Source: Planctomycetia bacterium (lineage in GTDB: Bacteria > Planctomycetota > Planctomycetia > Gemmatales > HRBIN36). Taken from it: DNA of 64,000 nucleotides. Both the position numbers and the translations under genes were made by a program. Below, one piece after another: positions 18,141-40,620 of the stretch. The stretch spans positions 1-64,000 of the forward strand of contig JAEUIE010000028.1 of the NCBI GenBank assembly GCA_016795155.1, in the 5' to 3' direction. How positions within the stretch are numbered: the stretch's first letter is position 1; each line of letters opens with the position of its first letter. Below the pieces are notes generated by a model. It worked only from the letters and a program-made list of their open reading frames with translations, was not told where the DNA came from and did no database searches.

Positions 18141-18676
18141 GTGATGTTCCCCTTAACTGATACCAGTAGCTCTTAAATCTTAGAACCATTCAAGTGAAAC
18201 TTTGATTAACACTATTTGAAGCGGTTTAGATGCGGTATTTCAAGCAAAATCGCAGGTTCAGCTTTACACACAACAACATAAGATCATATCAAATAATGAC
18301 TTATGTCGTTTCGAGGAGAGGCGTATGGTTTGAATCCTTGTGATATACATTAATCCTTCAAAAATTCCCTAGCCCCAACTTCTTGCGCCATCGGTACCTT
18401 CGGCACAATCGTTGCCAACTTCCAAGTTAATCCTTGAACATGGCACTTCGTCAAGTTAAGATGCCAACCCTCAGTCCTACTGAGGTTCAGAAAAGAACCG
18501 TTTCGGAAGACTCGCCGATATCGATGAGTCAGGGAAAAACCTTTGCATGGATGCAACTAATGTTGCTGTACACTTTATTGCTTGAACGAAGGACGTTACG
18601 ATAAAGAGAGGCCATAGGAAGTGGTCATCTCGTTATCGATTCGTCCTTTTTGTCATTATGGCAAAGGATAAGCCAC
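18141..18676. other. 536-base gene-free region upstream of the ribonucleotide reductase gene
   Basis: This is the divergent promoter region between the SRPBCC gene and nrdJ. It is more AT-rich than its surroundings. It contains two near-identical TTAATCCTT(C/G)AA segments (around 18350 and 18427) and a small CCTCAG/CTGAGG hairpin at 18469-18485. No cobalamin-riboswitch B12 box, convincing NrdR box, small gene or tRNA was found. Its length leaves room for an unrecognised leader RNA. Confidence 0.5.
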
Positions 18677-21600
18677 ATGAAAATCAGTCGCCGCTACACC
18701 ACCGCCGGGCAGGATCCCTATTCCGCGATCAAGTTCACTCCGCGGACCAGCCGGATCACCAACCCCGATGGTTCAGTCGTCTTCGAGATGAAGGATATCC
18801 TCATCCCGGAAGGCTGGTCGCAGGTAGCGGTCGATGTCATTGCCCAGAAGTATTTCCGCAAAGCCGGCGTTCCTCAAACTCTCGAAAAAGTTCCGGAGGC
18901 TGGCATTCCCGCCTGGCTGCAGCGATCTCAACCTGTTGATGGCAAAATCGACGGCGTGGGCTACGAAACAGATTCCAGACAGGTCTTCAGTCGCATGGCC
19001 GGTTGTTGGACCTACTGGGGCTGGAAGGGTGGCTACTTCGGCAACAACGAAAGCGACGCCCGTGCTTTCTACGACGAGCTGTGTTACATGCTCGCCATGC
19101 AGATGGCTGCACCTAACAGCCCACAGTGGTTCAACACCGGCCTGCACTGGGCCTATGGCATCGAAGGCCCGGCACAAGGCCATTCCTACGTGGAGCCAAG
19201 CACCGGCAAGCTGACCAAAGCCACCAGTGCCTACGAACGTTGCCAGCCTCACGCCTGCTTCATCCAGAGCGTCAGCGACGACCTGGTGAATGATGGCGGC
19301 ATCATGGATTTGTGGGTACGCGAAGCGCGTATTTTCAAATATGGCTCCGGCACCGGTTCCAATTTCTCCATGCTGCGCGGCGAAGGGGAGACACTCTCCG
19401 GTGGCGGCAAATCATCTGGCCTCATGAGCTTCCTGCGCATTGGTGACCGCGCTGCTGGCGCGATCAAATCGGGTGGCACTACACGTCGCGCAGCCAAGAT
19501 GGTGGTTCTCGATCTCGATCACCCCGATATTGAAGCCTTCATCAACTGGAAGGTGATTGAAGAACAAAAAGTTGCCTCGCTGGTCGCAGGCTCCAAGATT
19601 ACCAAGCGTTCGCTCAAGAACATTCTTGCTGCCTGCCAACCTGCAGCAGCGGGCAATGTCAAAGACCGTTTCGACCCGGCACAGAACCCGGCACTCAAGA
19701 AAGCCATGGTCGAAGCCAAGCGTAACTGCGTGGCCATGAACTATGTGCAGCGCACCATCCAGCTTGCCAGGCAGGGTGTCACGGGCATGGAGTTTGTCGA
19801 GTATGATACCGACTGGAACAGCGAAGCTTACAACACGGTAGCAGGGCAGAACAGCAACAATTCTGTTCGCATCACCAACGAGTTTATGCAGTCTGTAATC
19901 AACGATTCGATGTGGAATCTGTATGGCAGAGTGGAAAGGGAAAAAGCGAAGAAGGAACACCGCGACCCCAAGCCGAAGAAATCGCTCAAGGCAAGGGAAC
20001 TGTGGAGTGAAATCTGTGAAGCTGCCTGGGCCTGTGCCGACCCGGGCGTGCAATACGACACCACCATCAATGAATGGCACACGTGTCCGGTCGATGGGCG
20101 GATTAACGCGAGTAATCCATGTAGCGAATATATGTTCCTCGACGACACCGCCTGCAACCTGGCGTCGTTGAACTTGATGACCTTCTTCAAGAACGACAAG
20201 TTCGATATCGCCAGCTATCGCCATGCGACTCGTCTGTGGACCATCGTGCTCGAAATCTCGGTCTACATGGCCCAGTTCCCCAGCGATCCGATCGCTCAGA
20301 AATCGTACGACTACCGCACCCTCGGTTTGGGCTACGCCAATCTTGGCACCCTCCTGATGGTGCAAGGTATTCCCTACGATTCCGAAAAAGGCCGGGCGAT
20401 AGCTGGTGCCGTCACCGCGATTCTGCATTGCCACAGCTATGCCACCAGTGCTGAAATGGCAGCGGAAGTCGGACCGTTCCCCCGCTATGCCCCCAATAAG
20501 GATGCGATGCTTCGCGTCATTCGCAACCACCGCCGGGCTGCCTATACCAACATGCAGGATTATGAAGGCCTCACTGTAAAGCCAGTGCCTCTCGATTCTT
20601 CCCATTGCCCCAGCGATCTGCTGGCTTCTGCCCGCGAAGATGCTGACCGCATGGTTGCTCTTGGCGAAAAGCATGGTTTCCGCAATGCCCAGGTCACTGT
20701 TATCGCCCCAACGGGGACAATTGGCCTCGTCATGGATTGTGATACCACCGGTGTCGAACCCGACTTCGCCCTGGTGAAGTTCAAGAAACTGGCCGGCGGT
20801 GGCTACTTCAAGATCATCAACTCTTCGGTGCCCCAGGCCCTCGAACACCTTGGCTACACGGAAGACCAGATCAAGAGCATCGAACGTTATTGCCGTGGTG
20901 CTGGCACTCTCGATGGTTGTCCGCATATCAACCTGAACACTCTGAAGGCCAAGGGCTTCAGCGACGAACTCATCGCCACCATCCAGAAGATGCTGCCCAG
21001 TGTGTTCGAGTTGCGTTTCGCGTTCACCCGCTGGACGCTGACTGATGACTTCCTCAAGGGCGCGCTCGGCTTCACCCAGGCTCAGCTCGATAACCCCACT
21101 TTCGACGTCCTCTCCGCTCTCGGCTTCACCAAAGCCCAGATCGAAGAAGCCAACGATTATGTCTGTGGCACCATGATGCTCGAAGGGGCTCCGCACCTGA
21201 AAGCGGAACACTACGCCGTCTTCGATTGTGCCAACCGCTGCGGCAAGAAGGGCCAGCGCTACATCGCTTACGAAGCCCACATCCGCATGATGGCTGCCGT
21301 GCAACCATTCATCAGCGGCGCGATCAGCAAGACGATCAACATGCCTCAGGATGCCCTGGTAGAAGATGTCAATAATGCTTACATGATGAGCTGGAAGCTG
21401 GCACTCAAGGCTAACGCCCTCTACCGCGATGGCAGCAAGCTGAGCCAGCCGCTCAACACCAGCAGCGACGATCTGGAAGAAGCTGAAGCCGAGGTTACAC
21501 CCGAACCGATGGCCGCTGCGATGAAAGTCGCCGAGCGAGCCGTGCAGCGTTACGCGATGCGTCGTCGCCTGCCCGATCGCCGGGCTGGCTACATTCAGAA

Positions 21601-22288
21601 ATCAAACATCGGCAACCACAAGGTTTACCTCACCACGGGTGAATACCCCGACGGCACGCTGGGCGAAATCTTCATCACCATGCACAAGGAAGGCGCTGCC
21701 TTCCGCAGCTTGATGAACTGCTTCGCTGTCGCCATCAGCATCGGCCTGCAGCACGGCGTGCCGCTGGAAGAATTCTGCGATGCCTTCCTCTTTACCCGCT
21801 TTGAGCCGAACGGCATGGTGCAGGGCAACCCGCACATCCGCATGACCACGTCGATCATCGACTACATCTTCCGCGAGCTGGCCATCACCTACCTGGGCCG
21901 CCACGATCTGGCCCATGTACAAACCGCTGATTCAGAAGACCTCCGCAGCGATGCCATCGGCGGCGGTGCTCTAGAAGGCGCGGGCATGACCAAAGCCGCC
22001 GCCGTCGCCACGGGCACGGTGCCGCAGCGTCCAACAGCTTTTGAACGTCCCCGTACTGGTCGCCTGAATCCTGTTGGCAATGGCAACGGCCACAACCCGG
22101 TTGCAGAAACCCGCGCGAAAGTGGGCGTCGTCAGCGACAAGAAAGCCCAGCAAGCCGAGAAAGTCCGCGTCGCCCGTTTAAAAGGCTACGAAGGCGACCC
22201 CTGCCCCGAATGCGGCTCGATGACCATGGTAAGAAACGGCACCTGTTTGAAGTGCGATAGCTGCGGGAGTACGAGCGGGTGTAGTTAG
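18677..22288 (+). CDS. nrdJ: Ribonucleoside-diphosphate reductase, adenosylcobalamin-dependent (class II)
   Basis: The product has about 1,203 residues and reduces ribonucleotides to deoxyribonucleotides with a B12-derived radical. The catalytic barrel contains [64 protein letters not shown] and an [13 protein letters not shown] segment. The ~200-residue C-terminal part includes a TSCPD-like domain ([30 protein letters not shown]) and a zinc-ribbon-like tail ([16 protein letters not shown]) that carries the Cys pair that regenerates the active site. The length is normal for the long form. ATG at 18677 was chosen. The upstream TTG at 18650 is a weaker alternative. Oxygen-independent activity fits variable environments. 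No NrdAB is present in the window. Confidence 0.96.
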
Positions 22289-23005: not shown

Positions 23006-25537
23006 ATGAAGGATCAGCCAGTTAAACCGATGCCGGATACCGTGGTTGATCCAGCAATTCTGCATGGATCAACACGGGAAGGCACGGCTGACAACCAGTT
23101 GAAAACTGCCACCTCTTCGCAGGAAATTGTTCAGGCTGAAACTGCCACCCAGGCCAGCAGCGATTTCAAGCCTGCAGTATCGCCACTGCCGCTCCGCCGG
23201 TCCGAAATACTTTCCATTCCCGGCTACGAGAACTTTACCGAACTGGGTATTGGCGGCATGGGCGTGGTCTATCGTGCCCGGCATATCATGCTCCAGCGTG
23301 ATGTAGCAGTCAAGATGATCAAGTCCGGCGAGTTTGCCGGTCAGCATGAACTACAGCGATTCCTGCACGAAGCCCGCATCATTGCCAGGCTGCGGCATCC
23401 AAACATCGTCCAGGTCTATGAAGCCGGTATCAGTAACAACAGCCCCTACCTGGTGCTTGAATACATGGAAGGTGGTTCGCTGGCCAAGCAACTGCGACAT
23501 CGGCAGTGGACGATACCGGAAGCAGTTGCCCTGGTGGAAAAGCTTGCCTTGGGAATGCAATGCGCCCACAAGGAAGGTGTCATCCATCGCGATTTGAAAC
23601 CTGACAATGTGCTACTTACACCTGAAGGCGAGCCTAAGATTGCTGACTTCGGTTTGGCCAAGCACGATCAGAGCGGACAAACGCAAACGGGTGTCGCGCT
23701 GGGCACGCCCAGTTACATGGCACCCGAACAAGCTGCAGGAAAAACTCGCGATGTAGGCCCGGCAGCTGATATCTATGCGATGGGGGTGATACTGTATGAA
23801 TTGATGACCGGCCAGCCGCCTCATGTAGGTGAATCGCCGTTGGATACTCTGCAGAAAGTGCTGCATGACCCGGTAGAACCGCCTTCGCAACGCAACCCTG
23901 CCGTGCCTGCAGAGCTGGATGCCATCTGCATGACAGCGTTGGCGAAACAGCCTGAAAAGCGATTTGCTTCAGCACAATCGCTTGCTGAAGCCTTGGACGA
24001 TGTTCGTGCGCAGCATTTCCCGCCCAAGAGGAAGTCTGGCAGTTTGCCCAGCGTCGTGGTGCAACGAAAATCACCGATCGCGTGGAAGCCACTTGTCTCC
24101 ATAGCAGCGATAGTTGCAATCCTGGCTGTTTTGGGCTGGTACGGTTGGAACTACCCCTTCCAAAATAACAACCAAACCCTCAGCGTTCCCAGCAGCGACA
24201 AACTACCCGATCCTACCGTCCCGGCAACACCACCTGCAGTTCCCACCATAACCGCAAATCACCTGAAGCTGCCTATGGTCGAACCGCATGTAATGGCCTG
24301 GCTCGATCGGCAAGTCACATCTCTTGATCTCGCACAGAACAAGAAAAGTTATCTGTTCCGCCTGGGCAATGGCGATGAAGTGCTCATTCGACTGCAACTG
24401 GACGCTGGACGAAAAATATACTTCGATTCCATGCTTTATCGAGTGCGGGCTGACCGGACTTTCGAGTTCATTGCCGGACCACAGACCCGGATTGTCTTGC
24501 GTCAGGACAAGCTGGTGGATGGCGAGTATGGCCGCTTCAGCATGGAAGGACCGCTGGCTGACCTGATCATGGAACACAATGCACTCGGTTCGTTCCGCAC
24601 CGAGAACGGAAAAACGAAAATCACCCTGCATGTCGGTCACAGCCCTGAAATGGCAAAAACCAATCGGTTGCTTGGTGAAGCCAGTGGAGAACTGCAGGTG
24701 AAACAATTCTCGCCCCTGACCAGTATCAGTGTTCAACAACCTGAATTGATCCGTGGAGATTTTCAACTGCTGTTTCAGTCTGAGAAGCCTCCAGAGTTGC
24801 GTGTACCTAATTTGCGTGTTGCATTAAACTTTGCAGAAATACGTTCCAGCTGGCTGGCGAATTTCAAGGAAGGGAAGACGTTTTCTGACATCGACATTGA
24901 AGCCAAGCTACCCGCTGATCTGAAGCCCACATTGATACCAATGCTGAGAGTTTTCGGTGTCCGCCATGTTCGCTTTTCCCAGATGCACATCACCAAAGTC
25001 GATGATCTGGCCGTAACGGTCTTACCTCCACATACTTTTTTCTTTGAGGGCAAGCTCACGTTGCAGGGAATGATCGACAAGGAATCTTTCGGATCGAAAG
25101 TAGTAAACAAGGATGTGAAGGCAGATACCGCCACAGCAGGCCTGCCCGCAGCAGTCATCAGGCAAGCCAGTAAGACGACAGACTGGCATCGTGATCCTAC
25201 TGTTCCGTTTGCGATTAACGCTGACTTTGCCTTGAAACTCAGTGGCGAGTTTTTTTGGCCTGTCGATGTTAACAAACGATTCATTCTGAAACTCGAAATT
25301 CCCAAGCTGATCGCTGAACCTGCAGCAGAGAATTCGCAAAGCGCCCTGGTAGCTAAAGTGATGGAGAGTGGTGCAAAGGTGCTTCCCAAACTGCTTACTG
25401 ATGGTCTGGTTTTCCCTCTTTCCAATGAATCGATTAATGCCGACTTGAATACTGTGCGTGATCTTAAAGTGCAATTAGACCAGAAGGATGGTTACTACAT
25501 TTGGGAAGCAGCAGTAGTGGCGGTATTTACGAAGTGA
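23006..25537 (+). CDS. Transmembrane Ser/Thr protein kinase (Hanks type)
   Basis: The product has 843 residues. A low-complexity N-terminus (1-70) is followed by a complete kinase domain at about 74-335: GIGGMGVVY P-loop, VAVKMI Lys103, catalytic HRDLKPDN (194-201), DFG (214-216), GTPSYMAPE (APE 239-241). After a proline/lysine linker, one transmembrane helix (about 361-382) leads to a ~450-residue extracytoplasmic part of beta-rich repeats without a recognised sensor domain (no PASTA, WD40 or TPR). The kinase should be active. The sensed signal is unknown. Its end overlaps the start region of the deformylase frame, but the deformylase start at 25585 follows 48 bases later. Confidence 0.93.
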   Translation: MKDQPVKPMPDTVVDPAILHGSTREGTADNQLKTATSSQEIVQAETATQASSDFKPAVSPLPLRRSEILSIPGYENFTELGIGGMGVVYRARHIMLQRDVAVKMIKSGEFAGQHELQRFLHEARIIARLRHPNIVQVYEAGISNNSPYLVLEYMEGGSLAKQLRHRQWTIPEAVALVEKLALGMQCAHKEGVIHRDLKPDNVLLTPEGEPKIADFGLAKHDQSGQTQTGVALGTPSYMAPEQAAGKTRDVGPAADIYAMGVILYELMTGQPPHVGESPLDTLQKVLHDPVEPPSQRNPAVPAELDAICMTALAKQPEKRFASAQSLAEALDDVRAQHFPPKRKSGSLPSVVVQRKSPIAWKPLVSIAAIVAILAVLGWYGWNYPFQNNNQTLSVPSSDKLPDPTVPATPPAVPTITANHLKLPMVEPHVMAWLDRQVTSLDLAQNKKSYLFRLGNGDEVLIRLQLDAGRKIYFDSMLYRVRADRTFEFIAGPQTRIVLRQDKLVDGEYGRFSMEGPLADLIMEHNALGSFRTENGKTKITLHVGHSPEMAKTNRLLGEASGELQVKQFSPLTSISVQQPELIRGDFQLLFQSEKPPELRVPNLRVALNFAEIRSSWLANFKEGKTFSDIDIEAKLPADLKPTLIPMLRVFGVRHVRFSQMHITKVDDLAVTVLPPHTFFFEGKLTLQGMIDKESFGSKVVNKDVKADTATAGLPAAVIRQASKTTDWHRDPTVPFAINADFALKLSGEFFWPVDVNKRFILKLEIPKLIAEPAAENSQSALVAKVMESGAKVLPKLLTDGLVFPLSNESINADLNTVRDLKVQLDQKDGYYIWEAAVVAVFTK

Positions 25538-29614: not shown

Positions 29615-32600
29615 ATGATGGCTTTTCGTATCGAAACGCGTGCTGAACCCATTCCCGGCTATTCACTCATTGAGCGAATAGGAGGAGGAGGGTACGGAGA
29701 CGTCTGGAAGTGTGAAGCGCCCGGCGGGTTGTACAAAGCCATCAAGTTTGTGTTTGGCAATCTCGAATCAACCTCAGCTGTTGGTGAAGATGCAGATACC
29801 GGCAGGGCAGAGCAGGAACTCAAATCACTGGAGCGTATCAAGCGTATTCGGCATCCGTTTATTCTCGCGCTAGATCGATACGAAATCATTGATGGCCAGT
29901 TGATGATTGTGACCGAACTGGCTGATTGCAGTCTGCATGATCGTGTCAAGGAATGTCAGCTGCAGGGGTTGCCTGGAATTCCGCAGGATGAGTTGATGGG
30001 CTACATGCTCGAAACAGCCGAAGCACTCGACTACATGACAGAGAAGCATGATCTGCTCCATCTCGATATCAAGCCGCAAAACCTGTTCCTGCTGGCCAAC
30101 CACATCAAGATCGGAGACTTCGGTCTGGTGAAAGATGTCGAAGGCATGCTGGCCAACGTTACTGGCGGATTCACGACACTCTACGCTGCACCGGAATCGT
30201 TTGAAGGTTACGTCAGTCGTCATTCCGATCAATACAGCCTGGCGATTGTGTACCAGGAATTATTAACAGGCTCCAGACCATTTACGGGCAAGAATCCGAG
30301 GCAGTTATTACTGCAGCACGTACAAGGGACCCCGAATCTCGATGCGCTTCCTCCGGCCGAACGCCCCATCGTTGCCCGTGCCTTATCCAAGGCGCCCGCA
30401 GATCGATGGCCCAATTGCAAAGCCTTCGTGAAGGCACTTCAGCAGATACACCAAAGCTACTCACAAAGCGACCAGGCAACCGATACACAACTGGAACGCG
30501 AAGCACAAACGCAACCGATCAAAACACCCTCACCGTCTGATGGCAGCAACCTGGGGCAGTTAAGGAAAGTCACTGGCGATATCCGGCAGGATTTCAAACA
30601 GCGAAGTGATGCCAAACCCGATACTCAGATTGCCCATAACAGCCGGCGAATGCCCAAGCTGCAGTTACCCTCCAAAGAACAGATTGTTCTGCCTGAGTTT
30701 GATCCGAATCAGGGCATACTTCGCCCAACGATAGTTATCGGCCTTGGACAGTTCGGTCGAGCTACCATCAGCTGGATACAGCAGGAACTGATCTCCCATT
30801 ATGGTCAGGACGGTCATCCGCTCTTGCACTGCATGTCACTGGATACCGATGCAACTGCTCCTGCTTCTCACCTATGCACCAAGGAATCAACTGAAGATTT
30901 GCTGTTGATGGGGCTCAACCGTCCCTCCAGATACCTTCGATCGCGCGATACCCTGCCACCGGTGGAAGACTGGCTGAACACCAACCTTCTCTATCGCATG
31001 CCACGCACACTGACCACCAGCGGCATTCGCTCGCTGGGCCGATTGGCATTCATTGAGCATTACAGTGCATTCACTGCGAAGCTGGAAAGAGATATCCAGG
31101 AACTATTGTCCCCTGAATCGATGCAGAAAGCAGTACAAAAATCCGCTGCATCGATCAGACATTCCGTTCCGCGAATAGTGATCATTACCCATCTGGGTGG
31201 TGGCACCGGCAGCGGCATGTTCCTGGATTGCGCTTACGTGGTGCGAGATACGCTCCGGAAATCAGGTATCGAAAAATCGGAAATACTTGGATTGCTTTAC
31301 CTGCCTGATGCCGTGACCATGCAATCACCCGATTTGCCAGAGGCCAATGCGGTTGCAGCATTACACGAACTCTATCACTTCCAGCAGGCCGAAGTTTCCT
31401 TCCATGCCTGCTACCTTGCAAAATCCGAGCCACTGACTGAAGACAAGCCTCCTTTTGATCAGTGTCTGCTGTTTGAAACCCGCTCACTTCCACCGGCTCT
31501 CCAACAGGAGGGTTCCGATACAGCCATCTCGGTAATCCGGCAGGCAGCGGAGTGTGTTTATCGCCTCAGCCTGACATCCCTGGGCAATCTGGCTGATCCA
31601 GTACAGACTTCGAGCCAGCGTGATTTGTATCTGTCATGCGGCGTACAAGTTGCAGCGTCTCCACATCTGCCCGTGATGAATCACGCGATGAAGGTGCTCT
31701 GCAATCAGATGATTGATCACTGGTTGCGTCCCATTACCTCTCAGCAGAATGAAGCCATTCAAAAACGTATAGATGACTTCATCGAGATTGAAAAATATCA
31801 TTCCGAAGGAACATTTCAGCATCTCGAAGCAGGTCTCAGAGATGCACTGGGTAAATCGGCTGATGAAAGCATCCAGGAACTGATTGAACCTTTCCAGTTG
31901 CCGATCAAGCAAAAGCTCCCAGCGTCGCAAGCTGTTCAGGAAACGCTGCAGAAAATTCTCGATATTATCGGCAATGCCAAGGGAGATGATTCCGTCTCGC
32001 ACTCGGTGTTGAATCCCGTGACAGCTTGGGGCCATGCCATCAAAAATGCGGGAGAGTCGTTGACAAAACAGGCATACAAAAAATTTAGACATGCCATTTT
32101 CAGCCTGATGGATAAACCGGGCTTACGCATCGGCGCTGCAGATGTCGCTCAACGATACTTGTTCCGCTGCATGGACAAGCTCATGAACCATCATACCCGG
32201 CAAGCAAAGAAATCGCAGGAAGATTTTGCACTGGCACTGGCTTATCTTCGTGATGATGTGATGGAATACGATCGGATTCGAAACATCACTAAATTTCTCT
32301 GGCCCAGGATGCAGACACCTGCCGAACGACTGATGGCCGTGTACCGGGCGAGGTATGAATCGTTCATGCACGAACGCCTCAGCATGATCTATGAAAAACT
32401 CAAGAATATCTGTGTGACCTTTACACAGGAAATTGAGAAATGCAGAGCCAACCTGCTGTCCTTGCGTTACAGCAAGAATTCTCTTGAAGCGGATGTCCCT
32501 AAAGAACAAAGTGCTGGATCGACGACATCCTATCTGATGCCTGCCAGCATGGAATCACTGACAGATCTGGCACAGAAATACAGTAGCAGCTTTGGGGCAG

Positions 32601-33163
32601 AAGATCTTGAAAAGATCGACAACTTGCTCGCGCACAGCATGTCGGGCAGTTGCCCGCCACTAGGTGATGTTTACCAGATGTCGCCGGAAGCCATGCTGCA
32701 GATACGGAACCAAATACTGGGTGAGATTAAACGATTCCTGACCAAACGCGGTGTATCTATTGATGCCGCATCACTGTTCCTCGAACGATACCAGAGTGAT
32801 GCCGAATTTCTGAACCGCTATCTCACTCAGGCTCAGCCTCATGTTGCATTGACGGGTGGGCATCCATGCCATGAAAATGTCGTCTGCATGGTTCCCGATT
32901 CCGACAACAGTCGGAAACTGCAGTCACTCATCAGCCAAAGCCATCCTGAAATCCAATTGTCCAATCAGTCCACCCCGGATGAGGTAGTGATCTATCGTAC
33001 GCTCCGTGAGTTCCAACTGATGGAGTTGCATGTCCTGCAAGAAGCCGGCCAGCAGGCTTATCAGTCTGCCTTGCAGATTGAGAACTTTACACCTCATGCA
33101 AGGCAGGATATCAGCCACTGGTGCAGCCCCGAAGCCGAGTTGCCGAAAACCCGCAACCTGTAG
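29615..33163 (+). CDS. Ser/Thr protein kinase fused to a tubulin-like (FtsZ-fold) domain
   Basis: The product has 1,182 residues. Residues 15-275 are a Hanks kinase: GGGGYGDV (23-30), Lys44 of AIK, catalytic HLDIKPQN (149-156, Leu in place of Arg in HRD), DFG (168-170), YAAPE (192-194). After a ~80-residue polar linker comes a nucleotide-binding Rossmann-like start, IVIGLGQFGR (373-382), and then the tubulin/FtsZ T4 signature GGGTGSG (528-534). The remaining ~600 residues are helical (no membrane segment). This matches the bacterial tubulin-like (Tubulin_2) family with a kinase joined in front. A kinase thus may phosphorylate its own filament domain or partner. No cell-division gene is beside it. 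Confidence 0.85.
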   Translation: MMAFRIETRAEPIPGYSLIERIGGGGYGDVWKCEAPGGLYKAIKFVFGNLESTSAVGEDADTGRAEQELKSLERIKRIRHPFILALDRYEIIDGQLMIVTELADCSLHDRVKECQLQGLPGIPQDELMGYMLETAEALDYMTEKHDLLHLDIKPQNLFLLANHIKIGDFGLVKDVEGMLANVTGGFTTLYAAPESFEGYVSRHSDQYSLAIVYQELLTGSRPFTGKNPRQLLLQHVQGTPNLDALPPAERPIVARALSKAPADRWPNCKAFVKALQQIHQSYSQSDQATDTQLEREAQTQPIKTPSPSDGSNLGQLRKVTGDIRQDFKQRSDAKPDTQIAHNSRRMPKLQLPSKEQIVLPEFDPNQGILRPTIVIGLGQFGRATISWIQQELISHYGQDGHPLLHCMSLDTDATAPASHLCTKESTEDLLLMGLNRPSRYLRSRDTLPPVEDWLNTNLLYRMPRTLTTSGIRSLGRLAFIEHYSAFTAKLERDIQELLSPESMQKAVQKSAASIRHSVPRIVIITHLGGGTGSGMFLDCAYVVRDTLRKSGIEKSEILGLLYLPDAVTMQSPDLPEANAVAALHELYHFQQAEVSFHACYLAKSEPLTEDKPPFDQCLLFETRSLPPALQQEGSDTAISVIRQAAECVYRLSLTSLGNLADPVQTSSQRDLYLSCGVQVAASPHLPVMNHAMKVLCNQMIDHWLRPITSQQNEAIQKRIDDFIEIEKYHSEGTFQHLEAGLRDALGKSADESIQELIEPFQLPIKQKLPASQAVQETLQKILDIIGNAKGDDSVSHSVLNPVTAWGHAIKNAGESLTKQAYKKFRHAIFSLMDKPGLRIGAADVAQRYLFRCMDKLMNHHTRQAKKSQEDFALALAYLRDDVMEYDRIRNITKFLWPRMQTPAERLMAVYRARYESFMHERLSMIYEKLKNICVTFTQEIEKCRANLLSLRYSKNSLEADVPKEQSAGSTTSYLMPASMESLTDLAQKYSSSFGAEDLEKIDNLLAHSMSGSCPPLGDVYQMSPEAMLQIRNQILGEIKRFLTKRGVSIDAASLFLERYQSDAEFLNRYLTQAQPHVALTGGHPCHENVVCMVPDSDNSRKLQSLISQSHPEIQLSNQSTPDEVVIYRTLREFQLMELHVLQEAGQQAYQSALQIENFTPHARQDISHWCSPEAELPKTRNL

Positions 33164-39675: not shown

Positions 39676-40620
39676 ATGAATCTCCATTTGAATGCACGCG
39701 GTTTTCGTCTTGCTGAACTGCTGGAAGCCAGGGCAGAAGATTTCCGGGTTGCAGTCAGCCGAACGGCGCAAGGCTCGCGTATTATTGATGCAGGTGTAGC
39801 AGTCCCTGGCGGCTTGCACGCTGGCTTGATGCTTTCCCATATCTGCCTGGCTGATCTGGGACTGGTCAGCATACAATCTGCAACGCTGGCGGGTTACCCC
39901 CTCGTACAAGTCACCACCGATCAACCGGTAGCTGCCTGCCTGGCGAGTCAATATGCGGGGTGGATGATCAAGGTTGGCAATTTCTTTGCTATGGGTTCCG
40001 GCCCCATGCGTGCTGCTTATGGCCGCGAAGAATTGTACAAACATATTGGCTGCACTGAACTTGTTCATGCTGCCATTGGTTGCCTGGAAACCAAGCAACT
40101 GCCCAACGATGATGTGGCTCTCGACATTGCCAGCAAGTGCAATGTCAGCCCGGAGCATGTGACGTTGCTGGTTGCTCCGACGACTTCGATGGCGGGAACC
40201 TTGCAGGTGGTGGCACGAAGCGTAGAGACGTGTTTACACAAACTGCACGAACTCAAGTTCGATGTGCTTCAAGTGAAAAGCGGGCACGGAACTGCTCCGC
40301 TGCCGCCGGTAGCCAAACGCACCAATGCCGCCATTGGCCGCACTAACGATGCCATCCTCTATGGCGGCATGGTGACGCTATGGGTTGATTGCCCTGATGA
40401 CTTCATTGCTGAAGTCGGACCGAAGGTGCCTGCTTCTGCTTCACCTGATTACGGCGTTCCATTCGCAGAACTTTTTGAAAAAGTGGGAGGCGACTTTTAC
40501 AAGATCGATCCCCTGCTCTTCAGCCCGGCCAGGGTAACCTTCAACAATCTGCAAAGCGGGAGAATGTTTACTTTTGGCCAAGTGAATGAAAGACTTCTGA
40601 ACCAATCATTTTCGGGTTAG
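39676..40620 (+). CDS. mch: Methenyltetrahydromethanopterin cyclohydrolase
   Basis: The product has 314 residues and interconverts methenyl- and 5-formyl-tetrahydromethanopterin in the archaeal-type C1 pathway used by methylotrophs and planctomycetes for formaldehyde oxidation or detoxification. Characteristic blocks are NARGFRLAELLEARAEDFRV, GLHAGLMLSHICLADLG, GNFFAMGSGPMRAAYG, TSMAGTLQVVARSVETCLHKL and GRTNDAILYGG, all along a Mch-length protein. No ribosome-binding site is clear at the ATG 39676. The dapA-like gene starts three bases after its stop codon, so the two are surely co-transcribed. No other methanopterin gene (fae, mtdB, ftr, fhcABCD) is in the window. Confidence 0.93.
   Translation: MNLHLNARGFRLAELLEARAEDFRVAVSRTAQGSRIIDAGVAVPGGLHAGLMLSHICLADLGLVSIQSATLAGYPLVQVTTDQPVAACLASQYAGWMIKVGNFFAMGSGPMRAAYGREELYKHIGCTELVHAAIGCLETKQLPNDDVALDIASKCNVSPEHVTLLVAPTTSMAGTLQVVARSVETCLHKLHELKFDVLQVKSGHGTAPLPPVAKRTNAAIGRTNDAILYGGMVTLWVDCPDDFIAEVGPKVPASASPDYGVPFAELFEKVGGDFYKIDPLLFSPARVTFNNLQSGRMFTFGQVNERLLNQSFSG

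Follow-up and report, generated by a model that had tools for sequence, protein, structure and literature searches.

A non-RD Ser/Thr kinase fused to a Tubulin_2 (FtsZl1) body in Gemmatales: a strictly kept kinase and a modified tubulin-type nucleotide pocket

We analysed a 64,000-nt stretch of a Gemmatales planctomycete genome, here referred to as the window, in which one gene (29615-33163, + strand, JAEUIE010000028.1) encodes an apparently active, Hanks-type Ser/Thr kinase followed by a Tubulin_2 body (Tub2), which by its predicted structure is a distant, enlarged relative of tubulin/FtsZ. Our best reading, held tentatively, is that the protein is an assembly-regulated kinase, whose Tub2 body would act as a nucleotide-sensitive oligomeric scaffold. 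An earlier note made from the letters alone had described a kinase and a tubulin/FtsZ-like domain in one 1,182-residue protein; the gene is indeed one frame of 1,182 aa with an ATG start, and the domain assignment was right, while the interpretation as a whole is partly supported. The protein is probably cytoplasmic. Its features are as follows.

29615..33163, + strand: kinase-Tubulin_2 (FtsZl1) fusion protein, 1,182 aa (ORF and Pfam)
29660..30334, + strand: Ser/Thr kinase domain, residues 16-240, non-RD (Pfam PF00069; 41 relatives; 69-row alignment)
30479..30673, + strand: linker, about residues 289-353, low confidence, probably disordered (AlphaFold2 pLDDT <50 over 289-334 and 336-353)
30731..31492, + strand: Tubulin/FtsZ-type nucleotide-binding domain (Tubulin_2), residues 373-626 (PF13809; model and Foldseek; conservation)
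31496..31606, + strand: core helix (H7-like) and putative T7-like loop, about residues 628-664 (helix from the model)
31661..32776, + strand: all-helical stretch, about residues 683-1054, some 370-390 residues (AlphaFold2 secondary structure)
32870..33007, + strand: three strands and a helix, about residues 1086-1131, domain assignment presumptive (AlphaFold2 secondary structure)

Domains and motifs

Both Pfam matches are far beyond chance, with 103 bits (E 2e-29) for Pkinase over residues 16-240 and 126.5 bits (E 1.9e-36) for PF13809 over residues 373-626. The curated cut-off of the latter is 27 bits, so that the family name Tubulin_2, given in the note, is confirmed. The canonical Tubulin/FtsZ profile PF00091 reaches 16.6 bits on the same protein, under its cut-off of 33 bits.

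The kinase motifs named in the note were found again at the same residues, including the Gly loop 23-30 (GGGGYGDV), K44, H149-L-D151-I-K153-P-Q-N156, DFG 168-170 and APE 192-194. K44, E68 (the alpha-C Glu), D151, N156 and D168 are all present, the invariant columns having been checked across 41 relatives, and HLD replaces HRD, which makes the kinase a non-RD type. In the C-terminal part, IVIGLGQFGR (373-382) and GGGTGSG (528-534) also stand where they had been reported; they contain the T1-like GLGQFGR and the T4 motif, and are accompanied by a T2-like DTD (410-412) and by LGRLA (474-478).

Predicted structure

Residues 361-1182 were modelled by AlphaFold2 with 58 sequences (mean pLDDT 89.0, pTM 0.83), and the full-length protein was modelled separately (pLDDT 83.7, pTM 0.63). 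Foldseek comparison of the 361-1182 model with the PDB gave 38 matches at E <= 0.001, all of them TubZ, BtubA, FtsZ or tubulins, the top one being TubZ (E 2.7e-6; probability 1.00). The proposed kinship with FtsZ/tubulin thus holds in the predicted structure, and, according to AlphaFold2 and Foldseek, the fold that carries GGGTGSG as its T4 is of the tubulin type rather than some unrelated Rossmann fold. The structural alignments show 10-16% identity. Their target-normalised TM-scores are modest (0.31-0.53), as they would be if the nucleotide-binding domain and core helix alone were aligned. PDB sequence searches with the Tub2 part alone, or with its profile, returned no tubulin; the profile matches, mostly coiled-coil proteins, were regarded as spurious.

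In the model a Rossmann-type domain is followed by the core helix (627-653), a strand (672-681), the all-helical stretch and a strand-helix-strand-strand unit (1086-1131). Two helices of the helical stretch (838-890 and 902-952) exceed 50 residues. As modelled, the helical insertion may interrupt a tubulin-type C-terminal domain that residues about 1086-1131 complete. G657 and D661 of the T7-like loop are conserved in 58 and 54 of the 58 sequences, respectively. Residues 289-353 have very low confidence in the full-length model, so the kinase and the Tub2 body appear to be tethered without a fixed predicted interface.

The earlier note had proposed that a kinase in cis with a GTPase filament domain could couple phosphorylation to polymer assembly; Tub2 would then be a cytoskeletal GTPase that forms filaments, with autophosphorylation in cis controlling its polymerisation. 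FtsZ, TubZ and tubulin, its structural relatives, form filaments, and the protein has intact T1, T2 and T4 motifs, the core helix and the T7-like acid. However, the long helical insertion in the C-terminal part may, in the model, block ordinary longitudinal contacts, and the linker that joins kinase and Tub2 is probably disordered. Moreover, Makarova and Koonin were unable to recognise T6-H7 from the sequence; in their view the family might form filaments by some new mechanism or form none at all (PMC2875224).

Conservation of the kinase and the nucleotide pocket

The family alignment comprises 69 members, among which 66 cover the kinase catalytic residues. K44, D151, N156 and D168 are intact in 65 of these 66, with the copy on contig 59 of the same genome as the sole exception, and the non-RD motif HLD[IV]KP is found nearly throughout the 69. 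T4 is one residue shorter in 16 of the 69 members, namely the 13 clade-B members that belong to the sister family and three others, and in most of clade A it has the form xGGTG(S/G)G. The pocket residues G378, D410, D412, R472, G475, R476, D538 and N578 are nearly invariant. Those outside T4 are retained in all main clades, which rules out a general decay of the GTP site. The T7-like acid is variable within the Pirellulales clade.

With 65 of 66 kinases intact and about a quarter of the members carrying a short T4, no function is conserved more strictly than the kinase, and the nucleotide pocket persists in a modified form. The shortening of T4 in 16 of 69 members, together with the variable T7-like acid in the Pirellulales clade, means that FtsZ-like GTP-driven assembly cannot be general. 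Since the 16 relatives with a short T4 nevertheless have an intact kinase, the GTPase filament with control in cis seems to us unlikely, even though the genome is without FtsZ.

The Tub2 body may instead be a nucleotide-sensing, non-polymerising module that switches the kinase on or off. Among the kinases examined, the nearest ones outside the fusion family end in a C-terminal PilZ domain and carry the motif HLD[IV]KP; PilZ thus replaces Tub2 in the same kinase subfamily, and Tub2 would stand where PilZ stands. R472, G475, R476, D538 and N578 are family-specific and invariant even where T4 is short, as a sensor would suggest. In contrast, the long coiled-coil-like helices of the model suggest oligomers, and the tubulin superfamily generally assembles. 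We regard a purely non-polymerising sensor as doubtful, and prefer the assembly-regulated kinase.

One PilZ-ending kinase is found in the same genome (L268:2587-5460, - strand), a non-RD protein of 957 aa in which Pfam gives two kinase stretches.

Distribution and phylogeny

Tubulin_2 is present in 75 of 83 Gemmatales genomes and, when the phylum is sampled evenly, in 25 of 294. Canonical FtsZ was found in none of the 83, the single PF00091 match among them being a fragment of a Tubulin_2 protein. The earlier note had seen no adjacent division gene; none adjoins 29615-33163, and moreover a search of the whole genome found no FtsZ.

The genome contains four kinase-Tub2 genes, on contigs 8, 28 (29615-33163), 57 and 59. 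In the tree, the 29615-33163 gene pairs with the contig-57 copy (100% support) in that part of clade A which its own family forms; in many sister-family genomes clade A is represented by a tandem pair. The contig-8 copy falls in clade B, and the contig-59 copy forms a long branch. This last paralogue (L007:8899-12339) has lost both the kinase motifs and T4 (HGRLKLSN, DWG and SESLATG) in a frame that is still full-length, and by its sequence it is a double pseudo-enzyme.

Genomic neighbourhoods

A search of genomes for the kinase-Tubulin_2 order, which the note had recommended, showed that the fusion recurs across relatives, with scpA, an AAA ATPase gene and an FHA-EAL gene as recurrent neighbours. 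Neither scpA nor FHA-EAL/GGDEF genes lie beside the 29615-33163 gene itself. It is flanked by a GDSL lipase gene upstream and by kdsB 87 bp downstream, neither of them conserved in relatives; kdsB could share its transcript, but was rejected as a conserved partner because the adjacency is not conserved. A defence-system reading was also rejected, as the defence models match the kinase domain alone and look generic, the tree follows host families and the neighbours look housekeeping. An Rfam search over the window gave nothing. Elsewhere in the window are an ordinary RD-type Ser/Thr kinase of 843 aa 4 kb upstream (23006-25537, +), distant from the fused kinase domain at 50.7 bits, and a class II (B12-dependent) ribonucleotide reductase of 1,212 aa with a TTG start listed (18650-22288, +).

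FtsZl1 operons in other organisms often hold a separate kinase gene, and a vWA/FtsZl1/GTPase membrane-remodelling machinery has been proposed for them (PMC2875224). Our protein belongs to the same family and could be a part of such machinery with kinase and FtsZl1 fused in one chain. However, no vWA, GTPase or OmpA-type gene was found among the typed neighbours of 29615-33163, nor was any recognised as a conserved neighbour among those typed in relatives, and we consider this reading very improbable.

We surveyed 47 scpA neighbourhoods of Gemmatales from 37 genera. In 11 of the 47 loci, or 10 of the 37 genera, scpA is immediately preceded by a kinase-Tub2 gene of the same orientation, with gaps of -89 to 194 bp; these 11 include one Tub2 gene without the kinase part and one cut by a contig end. 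It is the commonest recurring upstream neighbour of scpA in the 47 loci. The linkage is restricted to the sister family and absent from the own family of the 29615-33163 gene. Such placement for co-expression with scpA, the condensin kleisin, in many Gemmataceae suggests that chromosome organisation is among the processes in which the fusion takes part. On the other side of the fusion, mfnB is divergently oriented and retained about as often as scpA; since it is kept equally often though facing away, the scpA linkage may reflect inherited gene order instead of function.

In two scpA loci, L175 and L183, from genomes related to L184 and L186, mfnB and scpA are adjacent in the same order without the fusion, an empty site that marks where the fusion gene was lost or gained. 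The window also encodes a methenyl-tetrahydromethanopterin cyclohydrolase (MCH) of the archaeal-type C1 pathway (39676-40620, +), and we take the mfnB-like gene beside the fusion in relatives to serve the cofactors of this same pathway.

The second linkage concerns cyclic-di-GMP, the subject of the PilZ, GGDEF and EAL domains. Nine Pirellulales-type loci have the AAA ATPase gene with the fusion in 9/9 and FHA-EAL in 8/9, besides a GGDEF gene in three and a weaker CBS-GGDEF-like gene in five. FHA domains read phosphothreonine. No full-length FHA-EAL homologue was found in 21 Gemmatales genomes, the matches listed being FHA-only or EAL-only. When the high-scoring ATPase subclade was defined by more than 480 bits, it occurred in 12/12 genomes that carry the kinase fusion and in 0/36 tested that lack it. 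As a prediction from the ATPase, Tubulin_2 was found within about 6 kb of it in 7/7 new genomes above 480 bits and in 0/13 controls below that score; these genomes are related and hence not independent events.

Proposed mechanism and its meaning

The assembly-regulated kinase that we prefer would consist of a non-RD kinase and a Tubulin_2/FtsZl1 body with a large helical, coiled-coil insertion, the two connected by a linker that is long and flexible. Assembly of the body would bring the tethered kinases near each other and near local substrates, and phosphorylation would be the output. Nucleotide binding, assembly, activation in trans and substrates are all points that we infer. In Pirellulales-type relatives, the neighbour-encoded FHA-EAL protein would be the probable reader, linking the kinase to cyclic-di-GMP; for the 29615-33163 copy no substrate is indicated. 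In many Gemmataceae, expression with scpA would make chromosome organisation one of the processes served.

A bolder proposal, which we offer as speculation with little expectation that all of it is right, is that in FtsZ-less Gemmatales and Pirellulales nucleotide-dependent kinase-Tubulin_2 assemblies organise kinase signalling, keep chromosome condensation coordinated with the cell cycle and provide input to cyclic-di-GMP control. If true, they would be signalling scaffolds based on tubulin, a type not yet described in bacteria. Planctomycetes divide without FtsZ, and here a signalling enzyme is joined to a tubulin-type body in a family near-universal in Gemmatales. The scpA and FHA-EAL/GGDEF links turn a named architecture without a function into concrete testable pathways, partly in the cultured Zavarzinella formosa and Limnoglobus roseus.

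Comparison with known systems

The kinase-Tubulin_2 architecture is not new, having been published for Planctomycetes, and it is ordinary for Gemmatales. Makarova and Koonin defined the family as FtsZl1 in 2010, with four planctomycete members carrying an N-terminal kinase (PMC2875224); the combination was restated in 2023 (PMC9871819), and a 2024 survey found the tubulin-like domain to be the commonest partner of purely cytoplasmic planctomycete kinases (PMC11032199). In the literature searched, no data on filaments, GTP binding or phosphorylation were found for the family. For the scpA and FHA-EAL/AAA links no paper was found in a search of mainly open literature, and the 2010 supplement may list such neighbours. 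What is new here is the contrast between kinase and T4 conservation, the scpA linkage, the AAA and FHA-EAL linkage, and the sister kinases ending in PilZ.

The known systems can be compared with our protein in three respects. First, FtsZl1 is defined by a GGGTG(S/T)G loop, then a coiled coil, then a mostly helical C-terminal part (PMC2875224), and our protein shows the profile match, this layout and the N-terminal kinase. With the planctomycete branch it shares the kinase, the FtsZ-like domain, the coiled coil, the helical C-terminal part and the phylum, whereas typical members elsewhere are without a kinase and are frequently encoded in vWA/GTPase operons, none of which was recognised among the typed neighbours; such partners are common but not universal, and hence not decisive for membership. 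Second, Tub2 shares with FtsZ, TubZ, BtubA and tubulin the predicted nucleotide-binding fold, the core helix and the T1/T2/T4 motifs, but differs from them in its large helical insertion, its family-specific pocket residues and its PF00091 score under the cut-off. Third, planctomycete kinase-PilZ proteins such as L268 have a non-RD HLD[IV]KP kinase like that of the fusion, while their C-terminus is PilZ in place of Tub2.
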